IMG/VR virus record: IMGVR_UViG_3300023284_001731
Coordinates: 1 to 33,358 of that record
DNA: 33,358 nucleotides
Direction: 5' to 3' (one strand)
From: a virus
Positions 17,461 to 31,469 of this stretch are shown here, piece after piece. Numbering within the stretch: position 1 is the stretch's first letter; each line of letters begins with the position of its first letter. The notes beneath the pieces are model-generated. The model was given only the letters and a program-made list of their open reading frames with translations, was not told the origin of the DNA and ran no database searches. Both the position numbers and the translations under genes were made by a program.

Positions 17461-17534
17461 TGCGCCGTGGAGCAGTCGGTAGCTCGCTAGGCCCATAACC
17501 TAGAGGTCCCGGGTTCGAGTCCCGGCGGTCGCAA
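17461..17534 (+). tRNA. tRNA-Met-like gene (anticodon CAT), antisense to all protein genes
   Basis: The cloverleaf can be drawn: acceptor TGCGCCG, D arm GAGC-AGTCGGTA-GCTC, anticodon stem CTAGG/CCTAG with loop CCCATAA (anticodon CAT at 17494-17496), variable AGGTC, T arm CCGGG-TTCGAGT-CCCGG, then CGGTCGCA. Oddities: loop position 33 is C, not the near-invariant U. The acceptor pairs only if T17529 bulges, since the 3' arm has one extra base. CCA is not encoded (ACA follows). The A11:U24 pair recalls initiator tRNAs, but the anticodon stem lacks three G:C pairs. It may be functional, degenerate or mis-sequenced. Confidence 0.8.
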
Positions 17535-17537
17535 CAA

Positions 17538-17562
17538 AAGGAGTAGGTACCCCCTGCTCCTT
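17538..17562. terminator. Two-way terminator between tRNA and endolysin gene
   Basis: Plus-strand stem AAGGAGTAGG, loop TACCC, CCTGCTCCTT, then ACTTTTTAAT ends the tRNA transcript. On the minus strand the same stem is followed by TTTTGTTG, after the endolysin gene. The stem is 10 bp with one G-U pair. It overlaps the TAA of the endolysin (17561-17563), so late readthrough into the holin genes may be partly controlled here. Confidence 0.75.
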
Positions 17563-18088
17563 ACTTTTTAATAATATTCACCCTGTCAAACCAACCAATG
17601 TATTTCTCATAAACCTCATTTTTTCTCATCAGATTAATGTAGAATTCCCCCTGTAAGATGTTCATCACATTGAACAATAGACGCTTATTCTTACATGCTC
17701 TAAACGTGCTAATTGTTTTGGGGCCGATTCCACCATCCACATCAATATCGCTGTAATCCTTTTCATTGCGATTGCTCAGATTTAAAGCTTCCTGGAAAAT
17801 CTTTGCACCCCTTCCAACGCCCATATTAACCGAAGTATCAAAGACCTCGATTGCAATTTCTGGATGATCTTCCATTAGATGACAGCTTTGACGTTGCCAA
17901 TAATCCTTATAATATATTTGTTTGGCCTCTTCCAAAGTCAAATCTTTTATGTTGACATCCGGATAAGACCGTTTAGATATGCCATAATTCGTTTCTCCGC
18001 CCTTATCGTCAGGGTCGTTAACATATCCGCCCTCGTGGCCTATTGTTCGCCTAAAGGCATCGTCAAAGGCTGTAAATGATTTGTCCAT
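17561..18088 (-). CDS. GH108 endolysin (N-acetylmuramidase)
   Basis: Cleaves peptidoglycan glycan strands. The N-terminal GH108 domain has the motif E19-GG, a D-x-GG near residues 28-31 and TNYGIS at 33-38, E19 being the expected catalytic acid. The C-terminal half contains DVDGGIGPKTISTFRA (about 116-131), the peptidoglycan-binding module usual in this family. Length 175 is normal. No signal peptide, so export relies on the holins. The gene ends inside the two-way terminator. Confidence 0.92.
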   Translation of the reverse strand: MDKSFTAFDDAFRRTIGHEGGYVNDPDDKGGETNYGISKRSYPDVNIKDLTLEEAKQIYYKDYWQRQSCHLMEDHPEIAIEVFDTSVNMGVGRGAKIFQEALNLSNRNEKDYSDIDVDGGIGPKTISTFRACKNKRLLFNVMNILQGEFYINLMRKNEVYEKYIGWFDRVNIIKK

Positions 18089-18098
18089 TGTATGAAAT

Positions 18099-18986
18099 TT
18101 AGAAATTTCGTTTGATTACATTTTGTTGTCTGTCCTTGAACTTGATATTGAAATTCAGAAAACCAGTTTCTTTATAGATTTCTTCCTCAAAACTGTCAGG
18201 CGTGACCGGAAATTGACTATAAATCACATCGTTAAAAACATTGAAAGCGCTGATTAAAACCTCATTTCCTAGAATATCCTGACTTGCAAGTCGTGTGAAT
18301 ATAGTTTCCGGAACAACCTCACAGCGCAAGGAATATTCCCGTATTGTCTGATCTCTGTTTTGGGTAACCCGAAATGATGAATCTAAGTAAGTGTCTTGTT
18401 CAAGTGAGGGCGACATTTCACCGAATACACCTCTCAAGCGAATCGATGACGGCCAACCTCCAGGAAATAATTCTGTAAAATCAAATTCTGAACTTACAAT
18501 ATTTCCAGTTTGAAAGCTTTCTATTTTCACTGTTCGATTGGCTAATTCGGGATCAAATAAAGCCAGCTTGAATTTTCTGCTTTCGAATTCTTGTGTCTCT
18601 CCCAGAATTACAGAGGTTACTTTCACCTGGTATTCACCTCCAGAGAAAGCATCAAAAATCAATGTCCAATCTGCAAGCCATCCCACATACAAAGGCTGTG
18701 CTGTAAACCCATCAAAAAATCGCCCCAGAGTATTATCAATAATAGTAGCTTTTAATATTCCATACCTAAAAAGCTTGATTGTAATGGTATCGGTCGCAGT
18801 TATTTTTCTAAAAAGGAAATCGGTAAAATCGTTGCTTATGCCATCACCAACACTATTTGCAAAAGCCTGCTCAACAAAATCGCATCTGAAATCACAGGCG
18901 CAGAAATCACCCGTATCACTAATGACCGGCTCGACAGCGGGAAGTATCGGTGAGGTTTGATCTAATATTAAAGCGACTGCGGTCAT
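18099..18986 (-). CDS. Putative tail/virion protein, 295 aa
   Basis: Begins MTAVALILDQTSPILPAVEP, with a cysteine-rich CACDFRCDF near residues 28-36. The remainder is beta-rich with repeated D/G-x-hydrophobic patterns. It follows the tail-fibre and small membrane genes and precedes the endolysin, the usual place for baseplate or fibre-associated proteins. Its start overlaps the tiny membrane gene by four bases (ATGA). Family not recognised; virion role inferred from position and beta content. Confidence 0.6.
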   Translation of the reverse strand: MTAVALILDQTSPILPAVEPVISDTGDFCACDFRCDFVEQAFANSVGDGISNDFTDFLFRKITATDTITIKLFRYGILKATIIDNTLGRFFDGFTAQPLYVGWLADWTLIFDAFSGGEYQVKVTSVILGETQEFESRKFKLALFDPELANRTVKIESFQTGNIVSSEFDFTELFPGGWPSSIRLRGVFGEMSPSLEQDTYLDSSFRVTQNRDQTIREYSLRCEVVPETIFTRLASQDILGNEVLISAFNVFNDVIYSQFPVTPDSFEEEIYKETGFLNFNIKFKDRQQNVIKRNF

Positions 18987-19105
18987 TCTGTTCTGAGTCT
19001 AAAAACCCACGCAAAAAAGGTAAGAATAAATACAATTACCAACACAAAAAATAATTTTACGTCGATCCTAGATTTTAAATACCTCCTCCATCTGTTATGG
19101 TCCAT
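18983..19105 (-). CDS. Tiny membrane protein downstream of the tail fibre, 40 aa
   Basis: ATG 19105 lies inside the fibre gene in another frame; TGA 18983 overlaps the next ATG. It encodes MDHNRWRRYLKSRIDVKLFF, then VLVIVFILTFFAWVFRLRTE: a basic N-terminus and one membrane span. The exact fit between neighbours (31-base overlap with the fibre, ATGA with the next gene) supports translation. Function unknown; possibly lysis or exclusion. Confidence 0.55.
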   Translation of the reverse strand: MDHNRWRRYLKSRIDVKLFFVLVIVFILTFFAWVFRLRTE

Positions 19106-22100
19106 AAATGATTAGTTATTAAATCACTTCTTCCAGTAGCAGCATCACTTCCTAATGTGAATGTAGCCCCCCCGCCATGAAATGTTACGTTATTTTGAGG
19201 TGAACTGGCCGGCCAGCCTGTGTTTATATCTAAAAGAGCATCATAATTAGCTGTTGAAATTGTCGCGCCGACTAAAAAGTCCGTAGCGTCAGTTAAAGAT
19301 GATATATTCCACGCAGATAAATCTTGGTCGAAATTAGGACAAAACCTAAACATTCTTAACATTAATGTTACGCTGCTTACATTCCAGCCACCAACATCTT
19401 GATTGAATATGTCCGCATCATCAAACATGCCAGTCATATTAGTAGCAGCGACTGTATTCCACGATCCTATATCTTGATTAAACGCTGCTGCATTCCTGAG
19501 CATTTGACTAAAATTAATGACGCTACTAACATTCCAAGAGGTTATATTCCCATTAAATATCGAAGCCCCCTGGAACATGTCTGCCATGTTTGTAACGTTA
19601 CCAACATTCCAGCTATTTAAGGATTGATTAAATGCTAGTGACGTTAAAAACATGCCAGTCATGTTAATTACGCCGCTTACATTCCAGCCACCTATATTTT
19701 GATTAAAGAGTACGGCTGAATTAAACATTGACTCCATGTCTGTTACAGCACCCACATTCCAAGAGGTTATATTTTGATTGAATAGTACGGCTGAATTAAA
19801 CATGAAGGACATATCGGTTACGCTACTTACATCCCACGAATTCAGTGATTGATTAAATTTTGATGCCTGTCTAAACATGAACGACATATCGGTTACAGCA
19901 CCCACGTTCCATGAATCTATGTTTTGATTGAATTCAGAGGAAACGTTAAACATCCTGGCCATATCAGTCACTTTGGAAACATCCCAAGAATTAATATTCC
20001 TGTCAAATACGAACGTATTTTGAAACATTGAATTCATGTTAATTACGTTGCTAACATTCCAGCCTCCTATATCTTGATTGAATACCAGGGATGCTTGGAA
20101 CATTGACTCCATATCGGTTACAGCACCCACATTCCAAGAGGTTATATTTTGATTAAAGAGTACGGCTGAATCAAACATGAAAGACATATCAGTTATAGTG
20201 CTAACATCCCAGTCATTTATAGACGGATCAACGCTGGCAAGGGCAGAGCAATTTAAGAAACAGCTACTAATAATTGTTGAGTTGAATCCAGGCACATCAG
20301 TTGCGCTCATAGTTGCTAGATTACTGCATCCACTAAATGAACCGATATCCAATTTAGCGGGTCCCCACAATTTTAATTCTACAATGGATAATGGGTTATC
20401 CACAAATGTGATTCGATCAAATGTTCCTTCTATTTTAATGTCAAAAACGCCCCCTGTAACATAAGTATGTTGTCTATCTGCATCAGCATAGGCCGTAACT
20501 GATTTATTACCGGTACTATCTCCAAAGGTTACCGTGAAATTATATAAACTATCATCACCATTAAACATTGGTAATGAGATGGTTTCACTATCTGCAACAG
20601 AAACGGTATAGACGAATAAAGGAGGAGGTAACAATCCTTGACCTATTCGTGAGCTCAATTTGTAATCAATACCTTCCTGAACTTTTGATCCGCTAATTAA
20701 ACATTCGGTAGTGACTGTTCCTCCCGCGTCTGTTATTTTTAAGCCAGTTTCCCCGGCCAATGGCACAATTATATTTGTATCTACTGGAAAAGGTAAGGTC
20801 GATGATAATTCCTGAATGCCATTTCCCAACGATAGGGATGGCTCTATTCTATGAATGGCGTAATCTATTGCCTCAATTAATGTTCGTGTATATGTGGTCT
20901 TGAAAAGAGTATTTTTGCCATTATATAACACCGCACCGCCAAGAGATTGAAGGGTATCCGGATCAAAAGTCTCGATGACGCCCGTTATTACCGCCTCGGA
21001 ATCATAATTATCTACAATTATTTTACCCCCCAATTGAATAAAATCACCCGTCACATTCCTGCCCAAGTCATCATCACCGCTTACATTAACAATGGTCGCA
21101 AGAAAGATTTCATGGCTATTTTTTTCGCTATAATTGGAACTCTTAAAATTCAAATTATCATTTGGTTCTGCTGAATCAAAAAACACCGTGTCAACCAAGG
21201 CATTCGAAAGCCAATCTTGCCATTTAATTTTCTGCCCAAAATATCCTTCATAAAATTGATCATTACCCACCTTATTTTTAGTGAGTAATTCGACTAGGTT
21301 AAATTGATCTGTTGCGAGCAAATCATAACCCCGACCCACTTGTACAGTAAATTGCTGCACTTGGTTTGCATCAATTATTGTATTACCTATGTCCACAGCG
21401 TAATCATCGAGTATAAAGAAGATCCCTGTCGTTAGGTTTCTGGCAATTAAGACATGTCTCAATGTATTGATAACTACATTTTTAGAAGCATCCGAACTGA
21501 ATCTGGTTGATAAGGCGATTCCGTCCTCATTAATTGCGTCATCAATCAATATTTTGGGAGTATCAACACCGCGCTCTAATTCATGTGTAAAAAATTCATA
21601 TTTAGTAAATTTCAAGAAGTCGGCAACAAAATTAGCATCTGTATAATTTCTAAGATCTGCCAGAATCGCCACCCTGTCACTGTTTCCGGTTGCCAGAGTA
21701 TCATCTTCAATTTGAATCCAGGTCATGTATTCCGAATCCTCAGTAAGTCTTAGTTTGTCTGCCGTATCATAGGTGATAACATACACCAAGGTTAAAAGAC
21801 CTGCGTTTAGACTTGAATCCACAGACTTTATAATTCCGGTTCCGGTGTTGCTTGTATCCGGAAAGGCCAAGGTGAGGCTATCAAATAAAAAATTCTGAAT
21901 CAAATCGGTTTCGGTCTCTTGGTATTGTGATTCGGAAACGGGTAATAGTGAGACATGCACAGATGCCGAATGATCGCTTGTAATGGATCCGGTTTTACGA
22001 CCTACTACGACTGTCACCTTAGTATTATTATTGATTCCTATGCCATCCAGGGTGTCAGTGCTATCATTATCCTCGTAGGCAATGGAAACTAACTGGTAAT

Positions 22101-22992
22101 TGTTATTGAATCCGTTGAAATTTTCACCAAACCAACCAACTACGCCGTTTATATCTTCAGTTATGGCACTCTTGGCGCTGGCTATATCCGTCAATGTTTG
22201 CCGGAATTCAAGATCAAACGCATATTTCAAGGAGTTGTCTCCAGCTAATAATTCGGGTATGGTGTCATTCAGTAGATTCGTTTTGAATTCAAGAATGAAC
22301 CAAGGATTAATGACAAAATTGTGAATAATTTCATATTGTTGGGTAAAAGCATCTGGAGGTGCGAGCTCTTTAATTGTTGCATTACCTGTTACCCAATCTT
22401 TTAATTTCCCCAGCGATATATAATTAATAAGAGTATCGAAGGCCAATTCAATGGCGTAATATACCTGTTGCCCTGCGCTAGTTTTTGATATAAAATTGAA
22501 TGGCTCCTCATTATTTATAAGACCAAATCGAAGTAAAGAGGCCGTATATGCGTTTTCTGGTATGGTTATGGCCTGCTGTATTGAAAAGCCAACATTTTGT
22601 GCTTCGCCAACAGTTATTTGAGCCCCAAATAACAGTGTAAAAGTTAATACCGTTCCATCTGAAGAAATGGTATCAATTGTTGCCTGGAATTCAACACCGC
22701 TAGTAAACCTTGCGTCCCAATTGCTGAAAAACCTCATCCTGTTGCCGACAACAATACCGTCATCCTTGAAGTTGCCAGAGGATCTCTCTATTCTACCAGC
22801 TGTCATACTCCATACTTCGGCACCCTCTGCGTTAGCATCAATTGAGAAATTTGCGAGGAATTGGATTCTTACTTTTTCCCCTACATTACCGACCAGATTG
22901 GGAGTAAACTCAGTTAAATTTTGGTCAAAATCCTCTCCATTACGAAGCTGATTAAAACATTTGAATTGTGATATATTAATCTCAAACGGCAT
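19075..22992 (-). CDS. Large tail-fibre-like protein ending in BspA-type repeats, 1305 aa
   Basis: The first about 785 residues are beta-rich and phage-like (VGEKVRIQFLANFSIDANAE early). Residues about 786-923 hold a PKD-like segment (FTVTFGDSTGNKSVTAYADA, then HTY..GGVFDIKIEG). Residues 924-1248 are 13 tandem 25-aa repeats of the BspA/DUF285 type (consensus I.SW.V..VTDM..MF..A..FNQ). A 57-residue cap ends the protein. BspA repeats are usually cell-surface adhesion modules, so the C-terminus is the probable receptor-binding tip. It follows the tail-tip genes and is the longest gene in view. Confidence 0.85.
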   Translation of the reverse strand: MPFEINISQFKCFNQLRNGEDFDQNLTEFTPNLVGNVGEKVRIQFLANFSIDANAEGAEVWSMTAGRIERSSGNFKDDGIVVGNRMRFFSNWDARFTSGVEFQATIDTISSDGTVLTFTLLFGAQITVGEAQNVGFSIQQAITIPENAYTASLLRFGLINNEEPFNFISKTSAGQQVYYAIELAFDTLINYISLGKLKDWVTGNATIKELAPPDAFTQQYEIIHNFVINPWFILEFKTNLLNDTIPELLAGDNSLKYAFDLEFRQTLTDIASAKSAITEDINGVVGWFGENFNGFNNNYQLVSIAYEDNDSTDTLDGIGINNNTKVTVVVGRKTGSITSDHSASVHVSLLPVSESQYQETETDLIQNFLFDSLTLAFPDTSNTGTGIIKSVDSSLNAGLLTLVYVITYDTADKLRLTEDSEYMTWIQIEDDTLATGNSDRVAILADLRNYTDANFVADFLKFTKYEFFTHELERGVDTPKILIDDAINEDGIALSTRFSSDASKNVVINTLRHVLIARNLTTGIFFILDDYAVDIGNTIIDANQVQQFTVQVGRGYDLLATDQFNLVELLTKNKVGNDQFYEGYFGQKIKWQDWLSNALVDTVFFDSAEPNDNLNFKSSNYSEKNSHEIFLATIVNVSGDDDLGRNVTGDFIQLGGKIIVDNYDSEAVITGVIETFDPDTLQSLGGAVLYNGKNTLFKTTYTRTLIEAIDYAIHRIEPSLSLGNGIQELSSTLPFPVDTNIIVPLAGETGLKITDAGGTVTTECLISGSKVQEGIDYKLSSRIGQGLLPPPLFVYTVSVADSETISLPMFNGDDSLYNFTVTFGDSTGNKSVTAYADADRQHTYVTGGVFDIKIEGTFDRITFVDNPLSIVELKLWGPAKLDIGSFSGCSNLATMSATDVPGFNSTIISSCFLNCSALASVDPSINDWDVSTITDMSFMFDSAVLFNQNITSWNVGAVTDMESMFQASLVFNQDIGGWNVSNVINMNSMFQNTFVFDRNINSWDVSKVTDMARMFNVSSEFNQNIDSWNVGAVTDMSFMFRQASKFNQSLNSWDVSSVTDMSFMFNSAVLFNQNITSWNVGAVTDMESMFNSAVLFNQNIGGWNVSGVINMTGMFLTSLAFNQSLNSWNVGNVTNMADMFQGASIFNGNITSWNVSSVINFSQMLRNAAAFNQDIGSWNTVAATNMTGMFDDADIFNQDVGGWNVSSVTLMLRMFRFCPNFDQDLSAWNISSLTDATDFLVGATISTANYDALLDINTGWPASSPQNNVTFHGGGATFTLGSDAATGRSDLITNHLWTITDGGGI
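19249..20223 (-). repeat. Thirteen tandem 75-bp coding repeats (BspA-type)
   Basis: Each 75-bp unit encodes 25 residues beginning near S/N-I-x-x-W and ending F-N-Q. Units 1-2 and 6-7 are almost identical over about 150 bp (protein SAVLFNQNITSWNVGAVTDM), pointing to recent internal duplication or gene conversion. Such tracts can gain or lose units in frame. Confidence 0.85.
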
Positions 22993-23212
22993 TAACTATC
23001 TTATTTAGCTTTGTCATAAGTTGGCTATGATCAGCGTTTTTATTTTTTGCTTCTTTAATTAAATCCTTCAATTCACCCTTCATCTTGGATTCGCTTTCAG
23101 GAAGGTTATTGATAGCTTGATTGGCTATATTCATTTTTTCCTTGAACATCTTGTTTGCCTGGTCTGCCAAATTCACCAAATCCTTATCGAGTAATCCTGT
23201 CTTGTCCATCAT
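22982..23212 (-). CDS. Small helical protein before the fibre gene, 76 aa
   Basis: I start it at ATG 23212 (MMDKTGLLDKDLVNLADQAN), not the TTG at 23227. It is entirely helical and charged, with NQAINNLPESESKMKGELKD in the middle. Its stop overlaps the fibre start by 11 bases. It could be a fibre chaperone or a tail-tip accessory, judging only from position. Confidence 0.55.
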   Translation of the reverse strand: MMDKTGLLDKDLVNLADQANKMFKEKMNIANQAINNLPESESKMKGELKDLIKEAKNKNADHSQLMTKLNKIVNAV

Positions 23213-23216
23213 AATA

Positions 23217-24977
23217 TTAAGGTTCAATAAATGTTTCTTTCAAATTCTTGGTATAAACTTGAGATTGCCAATAACTGATTATAGCAAAGTCCTTGTTCAT
23301 TGTCCATTCTAAGGTAATTAATTTACCTAGCTTTCCTTCCTGGTCTTGAAAAAACGAATTATTAACAACCTGTGTAAAGTCATCAAAACCGAATGGGATC
23401 CTTTCATTCTCAAACATGATTCGTTGACGCTGAAAATTGTTCTGAACGAAAGATTTTTCCACATGATACTTGTTCCAAAGAGTTTTGGCGCTGAACAATT
23501 CCCGGTGATTGCTGGGTATTCTATTACCCTCAATCCAAAGTAATTTTGGTACAGAATGATTGTTAAACGATACCTTTAAAACGCCCACTTTCTCGGTGAT
23601 ACGATTCTTTAAATTGCTATTTCCCCCAAATGTTTTAGATATCTTATCGAATACTCCCGCCATTTCAGACAATAATTTTTCAAACCCATTCAGCTTTTCT
23701 TTTCGGGCTCCCAAAGCACAGGGAATCGAAACCTGTTCGGCGTTTTTGATCGTCTTATTTCTGAGTATATTCACAGTTTTTGCATCAGTCAAGACCTGAA
23801 AAACCGTTCCTGTAAATTCATCTATAGTATACTCGTCGGTGACATCGGTTTGGAAATTGATATTTATACTCGATAAGATTTCATCCGTGTTAAATCTATG
23901 ACCCTGTATTTTTAGTACATCCGGTTTAATCCAGGTCGCTCGCCGAATCCAAAATTCAGCGCTTTCAGTATGAAACTCTACCGTATCATTTTCAATCAGG
24001 AAACGACCATTAAAAAGCATCCTGGCAAGTGCAAACATTTCAGTGCAGGTATAACCAAAATCGGTAACGTTTGGAATGCCTTGCTTTATAGTGCCGGGTA
24101 TCTGTATAAAAACGAATCCTCCAAAATCATCGGTATTGATATTGGAAGGAAGATAAACGACATTTTCCAAATCTTCTATCGTCGTATTGAATCCATATCC
24201 TATTTTCTGGCATGTCCTTTCCAGTAATGTCTTCAGAAGTATCGCTTTATGAGTCCTTTTTGGTTGAATCAAAAGCTCCAATAATGATTCGCCTAGCCTG
24301 ACAATTAAAACCAGGATTGCGGCTGCAAAGATTAGTTCAGCAACAGCAACAGCAACGGCATAGATTGCCGCACCTATTGGACCCGGCAGCCCACTAGATG
24401 CGATCCCGACAATAGTACCGATTTGTATTGCAATGTTTTTTATTGATTCAATCAATTGCCTTGATAACAAGAAAATAGTTATCAACATAGTTATAGCTTC
24501 AATTGTGGAATCAGTCTTGATAACTACGTAGTCAACATCCACAAAATCGGATTCTTTGATAATCCCAAGCTCCAAAAGAAAGCCGAAATCAAGAGCCTCT
24601 AATTGATCTTCCAGGTTATTCAGCCCATTGTCCTGCTTTATTTTTGCCTCTATCTGGCCGAGTTCATCGTTGATATTCGCATTATCCTGTAGATCTACAA
24701 TTCCATTAAATACCGCTATGCTATTGTTTCTTCCAGTGGCGGCAATCTCGATAGGGATACCTTCGAAAATTCCGACTCCACTTTTTAGACCCGCATCAAT
24801 ATGGCTTTGGATCTCTTTGGCAGCATCAAGAATAAACCTGAATGAATCGGTTGTTAGATTGGCCTGGGCGTTCTGATCAAAGGAAGCTTTAACCGCGACG
24901 TCAAAGAATTCACGAGGAACCGCCAACGTTTTACCATTGAGCTTTATTACTGTTTCATTGTATTTTGATGATCCCAT
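23217..24977 (-). CDS. Tail-tip/distal tail-like protein, 586 aa
   Basis: Directly follows the tape measure, where distal tail and tail-associated proteins usually sit. The first 150 residues are mixed. Two long hydrophobic stretches follow (about 157-178, TIEAITMLITIFLLSRQ; about 188-235, ending FAAAILVLIVRLGESLLELL), which could insert in a host membrane during DNA entry. The C-terminal half is beta-rich and ends AIISYWQSQVYTKNLKETFI. Family not named; tail-hub role inferred. Confidence 0.65.
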   Translation of the reverse strand: MGSSKYNETVIKLNGKTLAVPREFFDVAVKASFDQNAQANLTTDSFRFILDAAKEIQSHIDAGLKSGVGIFEGIPIEIAATGRNNSIAVFNGIVDLQDNANINDELGQIEAKIKQDNGLNNLEDQLEALDFGFLLELGIIKESDFVDVDYVVIKTDSTIEAITMLITIFLLSRQLIESIKNIAIQIGTIVGIASSGLPGPIGAAIYAVAVAVAELIFAAAILVLIVRLGESLLELLIQPKRTHKAILLKTLLERTCQKIGYGFNTTIEDLENVVYLPSNINTDDFGGFVFIQIPGTIKQGIPNVTDFGYTCTEMFALARMLFNGRFLIENDTVEFHTESAEFWIRRATWIKPDVLKIQGHRFNTDEILSSININFQTDVTDEYTIDEFTGTVFQVLTDAKTVNILRNKTIKNAEQVSIPCALGARKEKLNGFEKLLSEMAGVFDKISKTFGGNSNLKNRITEKVGVLKVSFNNHSVPKLLWIEGNRIPSNHRELFSAKTLWNKYHVEKSFVQNNFQRQRIMFENERIPFGFDDFTQVVNNSFFQDQEGKLGKLITLEWTMNKDFAIISYWQSQVYTKNLKETFIEP

Positions 24978-30113: not shown

Positions 30114-31469
30114 TTAATATGTTCTGCAAAAAACTCTGTTTGAGTTTACGGTTTTTAAGTTTTGAAGTATAGGGCTTTGATTCCTTCTTATAAACATCAA
30201 CATTGCTCTTAAAGTATCGTCAATCTGTGTAGTACTAGACCATAAAGCCTGCCCGGTATTTGCGACGTATCCCGAAACAGTAATAAATTCTGCTGGTATC
30301 CTGTCATCACCCACTTCGTTTTTCGTTCCCATCCATGACATTATTTGATTATCAGTAGGACAAAACCAATCTGAAAACCCCCCTTCCGTACTAGCAGCCG
30401 CATTGTCAATAGCGGTGTTCCAATCAACTGCGGCCCCTCCCGTCACTGTTGCCGGGAAGAACCACATTAAACGAGTATAGGTGTCTAGTAATATTTCGCC
30501 AAAAACAGTGGGTGTATTGCCGGCCTGATTCACCCATCTTTTCGTATTACCAAATTCGTTATTATTATTGAGGGTTCCAGGAGTTTTAGAAACAAGGGTT
30601 TGTCTTGCTTTGGCCGTTTGTGCATCTCGTATGATGGTGGTAAAAAAAGTAGCCTCAACATCAGCGTCATCTAAAGTTCTAAACGATGTTTGCTGACCCG
30701 TTGGTTGTGGGTATTCCGCGCCCCTCCCGTTTTGTGCTACAAGAACATCAAAAGTGATCTCATCTAATTTTGGACATGGTAATCGCGGTGTGATTGCTTT
30801 AGGCTCACAATCTGTTAATGGTAATGTCAATGAAAGTTCAACGCCCGTTAATTTATCATCAAATATGTTTTTTATATGGCCTTTTAAATCAGTGAAAGTT
30901 CCCCACTTCACATGATTTACCCTGGAGAATTCGGTTTCGTCCAGAAAGAATAATTCACTTTTCAATGCTTGATCCCTGAATGCATTAACGAGTGCATTGA
31001 GTCCTAGTAGTCTTTGACTGTAATGTTCATCGGTCGTCCAATCATCAAAATTTGCACTGTCAAGAAAGAACAACCGAACGTCAGAATCCCGTTTAACAGA
31101 ACTAAAAATGTCCTTATCCTTTTCTTTTAGTATCTCATGCAAGTATATCATTGGCACCTTAACCTTATGGTCGGCCTCTGATATCTGGTTGTTGGTAGCT
31201 ATTGGGGTGCCATGAAAATAAAAGGGTAGTGGAACTGTGTAGTTAAAAGGTGCAGCCGGGAGCCCGGAGACGGTGATTGATGTTTCAAAAACAACGGATA
31301 GGATTGTGAATGGCAAACCATCAATATCTAGGACCATGCCTTTTCGTGCATGAAATGTATTATCGACTATTAAAGTGGTGTCCGTTCCATCATCTGAAAA
31401 AGACCGCACATCGCCCGATAAATCTAAGCTTTGAATGAAATCGTCTATGATATCAACAGTCAATTTCAT
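30114..31469 (-). CDS. Neck protein with a C-terminal DUF1566 (Lcl) domain, 451 aa
   Basis: The N-terminal about 100 residues include a small beta domain (VDNTFHARKGMVLDIDGLPF). The middle is helical and phage-specific (DSDVRLFFLDSANFDDWTTD). The C-terminal about 120 residues form a DUF1566/Lcl domain: TYTRLMWF, W-x-TAIDNA, FSDWFCPTDNQIMSWMG, ALWSSTTQIDD, then FCRTY. Such domains usually adopt a C-type-lectin-like fold and bind surfaces or proteins. It lies between the connector and the tail terminator. The lectin-like domain may decorate the neck. Confidence 0.75.
   Translation of the reverse strand: MKLTVDIIDDFIQSLDLSGDVRSFSDDGTDTTLIVDNTFHARKGMVLDIDGLPFTILSVVFETSITVSGLPAAPFNYTVPLPFYFHGTPIATNNQISEADHKVKVPMIYLHEILKEKDKDIFSSVKRDSDVRLFFLDSANFDDWTTDEHYSQRLLGLNALVNAFRDQALKSELFFLDETEFSRVNHVKWGTFTDLKGHIKNIFDDKLTGVELSLTLPLTDCEPKAITPRLPCPKLDEITFDVLVAQNGRGAEYPQPTGQQTSFRTLDDADVEATFFTTIIRDAQTAKARQTLVSKTPGTLNNNNEFGNTKRWVNQAGNTPTVFGEILLDTYTRLMWFFPATVTGGAAVDWNTAIDNAAASTEGGFSDWFCPTDNQIMSWMGTKNEVGDDRIPAEFITVSGYVANTGQALWSSTTQIDDTLRAMLMFIRRNQSPILQNLKTVNSNRVFCRTY

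Follow-up and report, generated by a model that had tools for sequence, protein, structure and literature searches.

The window analysed here is the whole virus record IMGVR_UViG_3300023284_001731 of IMG/VR, 33,358 bases in length. As the first-pass annotation had stated, it contains a gene for a tail protein of 1305 amino acids, P0001. In this protein a conserved core is followed by a PKD-like domain, an array of PARCEL repeats and a C-terminal cap (Table 1). The part behind the core (residues 786 to 1305) is termed the module in the following. P0001 is located downstream of the probable tape measure gene within the tail module of the genome, which is one of the features that we looked for in a receptor-binding tip. 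The genes are arranged in the order tape measure, P0002, small ORF, P0001, P0004 and endolysin. The Flavobacterium psychrophilum phages FpV9 and FPSV-S20 have the same order and encode relatives of the core (23.5%), P0002 (29.1%) and P0004. In contrast to P0001, the FpV9 protein consists of the core only (837 aa, without DUF285), and its gene is followed by two additional ones (398 and 745 aa).

Table 1. Features of the P0001 locus. Positions refer to the window; L numbers are our labels for related records.
Feature	Position	Strand	Evidence
P0001, 1305-aa tail protein: core, PKD-like domain, PARCEL array and C-terminal cap	19075..22992	-	ORF, Pfam and PHROG matches
Conserved core, residues 1-785, chain of beta-sandwich domains	20638..22992	-	relatives; model with pLDDT 90.4 and pTM 0.65; phrog_12056 at residues 212-784
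PKD-like beta domain, approximately residues 794-870 (boundary by inspection)	20383..20613	-	strands in the model; alignment with PKD-bearing proteins
Entry cap joining PKD-like domain to array, approximately residues 871-924 (boundary by inspection)	20221..20382	-	model
Array, 13 x 25 residues, DUF285/PARCEL, LRR-like solenoid (predicted)	19246..20220	-	profiles, unit comparison, model
Duplicated segment copy A, units 1 to 3	20034..20211	-	151/178 identical to copy B
Duplicated segment copy B, units 6 to 8	19659..19836	-	151/178 identical to copy A
C-terminal cap, residues 1250-1305, ends WTITDGGGI	19078..19245	-	ORF, model; similar ending in L014, L023 and L135
Small ORF between P0002 and P0001, in the place of a small FpV9 gene	22982..23227	-	ORF call, gene order only
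P0002, 586 aa	23217..24977	-	32 Flavobacterium phage records contain a relative
Probable tape measure protein, 902 aa	24978..27686	-	phrog_167, E 7e-06; order as in FPSV-S20
P0004, 295 aa, phrog_12180	18099..18986	-	fused to core C-terminus in three relatives
Endolysin, glycosyl hydrolase 108 and peptidoglycan-binding domain	17561..18088	-	Pfam and PHROG matches

The array consists of 13 consecutive units of 25 residues in one register. The same number of repeats and the same 975 bp had been proposed before, shifted by one codon (19249-20223). In addition, unit 13 is degenerate (24 to 36 of 75 bases in common with the other units), and with 56 residues following it the array is not the end of the protein. 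In units 1 to 12 the residues W, M and F at positions 4, 15 and 22 are invariant, and positions such as 8, 13, 14, 17, 18, 20 and 21 vary freely. Such tandem units of 25 residues with conserved hydrophobic and variable polar positions are those of PARCEL/DUF285 elements. The Pfam family DUF285 (PF03382) matches P0001 with 396.7 bits (E 1.1e-120) against a cut-off of 25 bits, which is far above chance, and it is the only Pfam family found at E 0.01. The NCBIfam profile TIGR02167, described there as PARCEL repeat, matches with 79.8 bits (cut-off 30), and the LRR_5 profile (PF13306, "BspA") has no match in P0001 at E 0.01. The term BspA-type used previously is thus acceptable only loosely, for the predicted fold and as the name given in several phage records; the family is DUF285/PARCEL. 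Tandem Repeats Finder reported only two to three copies of the 75-bp unit, because the copies have diverged.

According to the available text of Roske et al. (2010; PMC2996958), PARCEL/DUF285 elements (PF03382, TIGR02167) are found in surface proteins. The array shares with the elements described there the tandem units of 25 residues, the profile, the variation at polar positions and a weak dyad symmetry of the coding DNA; it differs in being joined to a phage tail core and in being modelled as an LRR-like solenoid, whereas an amphipathic helix had been proposed. For the array DNA the best self-complement match is 41.7%. Column shuffles gave 35.3% and reached the observed value in 1 of 500 cases; synonymous nulls gave 38.7% and reached it in 3 of 200. 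The effect is weak. The antisense strand of the array (19382-19684, plus strand) gives a weak DUF285 match of 19 bits, below the cut-off and with four TGA codons, which is expected since PARCEL DNA has dyad symmetry.

The structure of residues 786 to 1305 was predicted with AlphaFold together with 11 relatives. The model has a mean pLDDT of 90.8, mostly 93 to 98 in the blocks of the array, with approximately one strand residue per unit, and the array is predicted with confidence to be an LRR-like solenoid. There is no helix inside the array in this model, and the amphipathic helix of Roske et al. is thus not seen; we did not take this helix as defining PARCEL elements, because it is a prediction and not a solved structure. 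Among 50 VIA alignments of the module model nearly all are to LRR proteins. The best is to the Bacteroides ovatus LRR protein BACOVA_04585 (PDB 4fs7), with a Z of 21.5, a score that repeats reach easily, and an rmsd of 5.2 over 363 residues, yet with only 10% identity. Foldseek gave no match for the module model at E 0.001 or better. Despite the PKD-like domain in the model, PKD itself has no Pfam match in P0001.

For the core model, 67 Foldseek matches in the PDB were obtained at E 0.001 or below, those listed with a TM below 0.2 of the query, and the highest Z given by VIA was 8.5, with arrestins and further chains of the beta-sandwich type among the matches. We therefore rejected assignment of the core to a PDB fold family and retain only the description of a predicted multi-beta-domain protein. 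Among viral models there are five strong matches (E 2.4e-52 to 7.3e-39), all unnamed or uncharacterised proteins that point to no function. A sequence search of solved structures with the whole P0001 returned only five weak matches, all to antibodies (E 0.29 or higher), and profile searches with core and module returned nothing at E 1.

Relatives of core residues 1 to 785 were identified in IMG/VR, in eight genome-bin contigs and in 32 Flavobacterium phage records. By their labels, most of these contigs belong to genera or orders of Bacteroidota; two carry the label Oceanospirillaceae and one is labelled as an archaeon. Altogether, 88 distinct records carry the core (L059 and L065 are left out, being the same records as L010 and L012). 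The ORF is 720 to 855 aa long in 75 of them and longer than 900 aa in nine, including L111, the 3′ end of which is open; four partial ORFs (L066, L076, L122, L133) belong to neither group. One of the 75 is the nearest relative, L007 (74%), whose ORF is interrupted out of frame 127 bases before the end of the contig, which leaves its C-terminus uncertain. Several core-only relatives (for example L107, L053, L083 and FpV9) have short tails with repeated acidic motifs (...TEDGILKQLE, ...YEDKYE) that are absent from P0001.

The nine long proteins carry different extensions. That of L082 matches Laminin_G_3 over the cut-off (E 5.6e-19). Those of L008 and L127 are LRR-like, with LRR_5 found only below the cut-off (E 0.21 and 0.0026), those of L071 and L086 belong to no family, and that of L070 has only a below-cut-off match. 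In L109, L111 and L134 a P0004-like sequence is fused to the core C-terminus, which suggests that core protein and P0004 touch each other in the virion. DUF285 was found in none of the 80 records of relatives that were searched whole (79 from IMG/VR, some of which may be fragments, and FpV9), and the same search finds the array of the window. For the genome bins this search covered four of the eight loci; two of these genomes are positive, elsewhere than in the L127 core gene. The 75 core-only proteins, the nine differing extensions and the lack of DUF285 in these 80 records together indicate that the module of the window is specific to its lineage and was added at a joint where various domains can be attached. 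Exchange of the C-terminal domain among relatives of a common core is another feature that we looked for in a receptor-binding tip.

Of 199 genomes drawn from the family of a Lacinutrix MAG (Flavobacteriaceae by its title), 78 have a match to the module with its PKD-like domain, array and cap. The two best bacterial matches cover residues 13-518 and 12-519 of 520 with 44 and 45% identity. Four such proteins were scanned: L143 contains PKD together with Por_Secre_tail, a sorting domain of the T9SS, L147 contains PKD and cadherin domains, and the N-termini of L146 and L147 are lipoprotein-like by inspection. L143 thus resembles the module over nearly its whole length (44%), but it is a bacterial protein of the secreted type. 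The Lacinutrix MAG containing the core relative L127 has 23 DUF285 matches. These similarities suggest that the module was probably captured from a Flavobacteriaceae-like host, as part of one of its surface proteins. Transfer from the host family to the phage is the likely route, although phage arrays match at similar strength (LR756500 with 38.8%, L014 with 45%).

The first-pass annotation described units 1-2 and 6-7 as almost identical in DNA and as the result of recent duplications. No pair of units is nearly identical over its whole length: units 1 and 6 share 60 of 75 bases and units 2 and 7 share 62 of 75 (80-83%), while units 1 and 2 share only 47 of 75. Self-comparison at a shift of five units aligned the segments A and B with a score of 97, and 500 nulls encoding the same protein with random synonymous codons gave a maximum of 73. 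A duplication of 178 bp, corresponding to about two and a half units and placed five units apart, is therefore real, since its score exceeds all nulls. It cannot be called recent, since the copies have diverged by about 15%.

The same annotation went on to propose that the array can change in length or composition and so provide a route to a new host range. In a stronger form, recombination between near-identical units would change the array length frequently and serve as a fast switch of host range. The duplication speaks for such a mechanism, as does a stretch of 36 bases in units 1 and 7 with 35 identities, although a score of this size is within the null range. The divergence of the copies and the lack of any whole-unit near-identity argue against it, and so do two other phage arrays, neither of which has gained or lost a whole unit. 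In 43 records of Synechococcus phage ACG-2014f the PARCEL gene is 1128 bases long in 41 and 1135 bases in one (a change of 7 bases); one is a partial match. Among seven lake records nearly identical to L030 the array gene is exact in three and has one substitution in another, so that four keep its length; in two others gaps of about 43 and 31 bases occur, the partial L036 has 8 gap bases, and none differs from L030 by a whole unit. Both comparisons speak against a fast length switch in general, and we regard it as improbable for P0001. The absence of a reverse transcriptase system was confirmed as far as RVT_1 is concerned: no match was found in the 33,358-base record, which may be incomplete, and the control was positive in three of 14 genomes.

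Variants of the F. psychrophilum phages bear on the function of the core. Three FpV9 variant records, listed on host strain 020612-2/1 and marked UNVERIFIED, carry four base differences from FpV9 in total (one, one and two per record), three of which are located in the core homologue. Two of the three records have one amino acid change in this protein, and the third changes the tape measure. Of 29 records, 27 contain an identical copy of the gene, and none of six FPSV-S20 variant records has a change in it. A chance of 0.0008 can be calculated for three of four bases falling into the gene, but as this assumes independent bases and includes a synonymous one, it was given no weight. The changed residues correspond to residues 442 and 548 of P0001 and thus lie in the core and not in the tip, which FpV9 does not have. 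These changes make the core a candidate adsorption protein and say nothing direct about the array. A literature search at the level of titles found no paper on the FpV9 or FPSV-S20 variants.

The array probably forms the distal portion of an attachment tip that can be exchanged, used for receptor binding or docking and derived from the host family. The earlier proposal of a probable receptor-binding tip thus finds support, namely in the position in the tail module, the swapped C-termini of the relatives and the changes in the core of the FpV9 variants. Core residues 1 to 785, by homology and model a conserved chain of beta-sandwich domains, would form a fibre or a baseplate-linked stalk. Comparison with the relatives shows that this lineage gained a ready-made module at the core C-terminus, consisting of the PKD-like domain, the solenoid of 13 PARCEL units and the cap, with a surface protein of a Flavobacteriaceae-like host as its probable source. 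On the virion the module would sit at the distal tip of the tail, where the variable unit positions may bind a ligand on the host surface. Shifts of specificity would then come mainly from point changes and the exchange of whole modules, with internal duplication as a slow additional source.

Since 75 of the 88 relatives do without a long tip, recognition may sit in another protein. The same count favours a role as spacer or in general docking, for instance to mucus, matrix or exopolysaccharide, by which the module would raise the encounter rate rather than set the host range. The Laminin_G-like and LRR-like extensions of other relatives would fit such docking to glycans or proteins, but one module that is particular to its lineage and placed at a fixed joint is equally compatible with specificity, and we consider the spacer or docking role a lesser possibility. 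The rarity of DUF285 in the core family (none of 80 others) could also be read as the mark of an acquired passenger without a present role. This is very unlikely, as the reading frame is intact across 520 residues, the signature positions are retained in 12 units, the predicted fold is confident, and the GC content of the module (0.383) does not set it apart from the rest of the gene (0.390). An attachment tip from the host family may also have a wider meaning: phage and host solenoids could recognise the same surface ligand or each other, and the joint, taking up PARCEL, LRR or lectin modules, could be a general docking site in flavobacterial phages. This extension is speculative.

The use of such repeats by a phage had been considered notable. 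Altogether, 144 phage records match P0001, 32 of them Flavobacterium phages that match via the core, and PARCEL arrays in phages are already known. DUF285 arrays are present in the genomes of Vibrio phage vB_VhaM_pir03, Synechococcus phage ACG-2014f, where the PARCEL ORF lies near baseplate and tail collar genes, and Sphingomonas phage PAU. Unlike the virus of the window, these are large phages in which PARCEL is not joined to a core of this type. The available text of the pir03 paper (PMC7765460) reports one PARCEL element in that phage and states that it had been undescribed in phages to that date. A literature search at the level of titles returned no report of a DUF285 receptor-binding protein, and the available text of the paper on Campylobacter phage F341 contains no DUF285. 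Less usual is the clear joint between a tail core of the flavobacterial type and a PARCEL module of the host type. Bacteria and protists commonly carry PARCEL proteins on their surfaces, and little is known of the ligands of these proteins. One array at a fixed joint, beside relatives without array, offers a clean comparison for the role of the module in adsorption, and P0001 is a candidate attachment protein for this group of flavobacterial phages, in which the proteins compared here have hypothetical annotations.

Two further observations were made in the window. A tRNA gene is located at 17462-17533 on the plus strand, opposite to the neighbouring genes; it matches Rfam RF00005 with 52.8 bits and was not reported by ARAGORN, and its anticodon is CAT by eye. 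A protein of 451 aa encoded between the capsid and tail genes (30114-31469, minus strand) has a C-terminal match to Lcl_C below the cut-off (E 2.2e-05) and possibly carries a second attachment domain.
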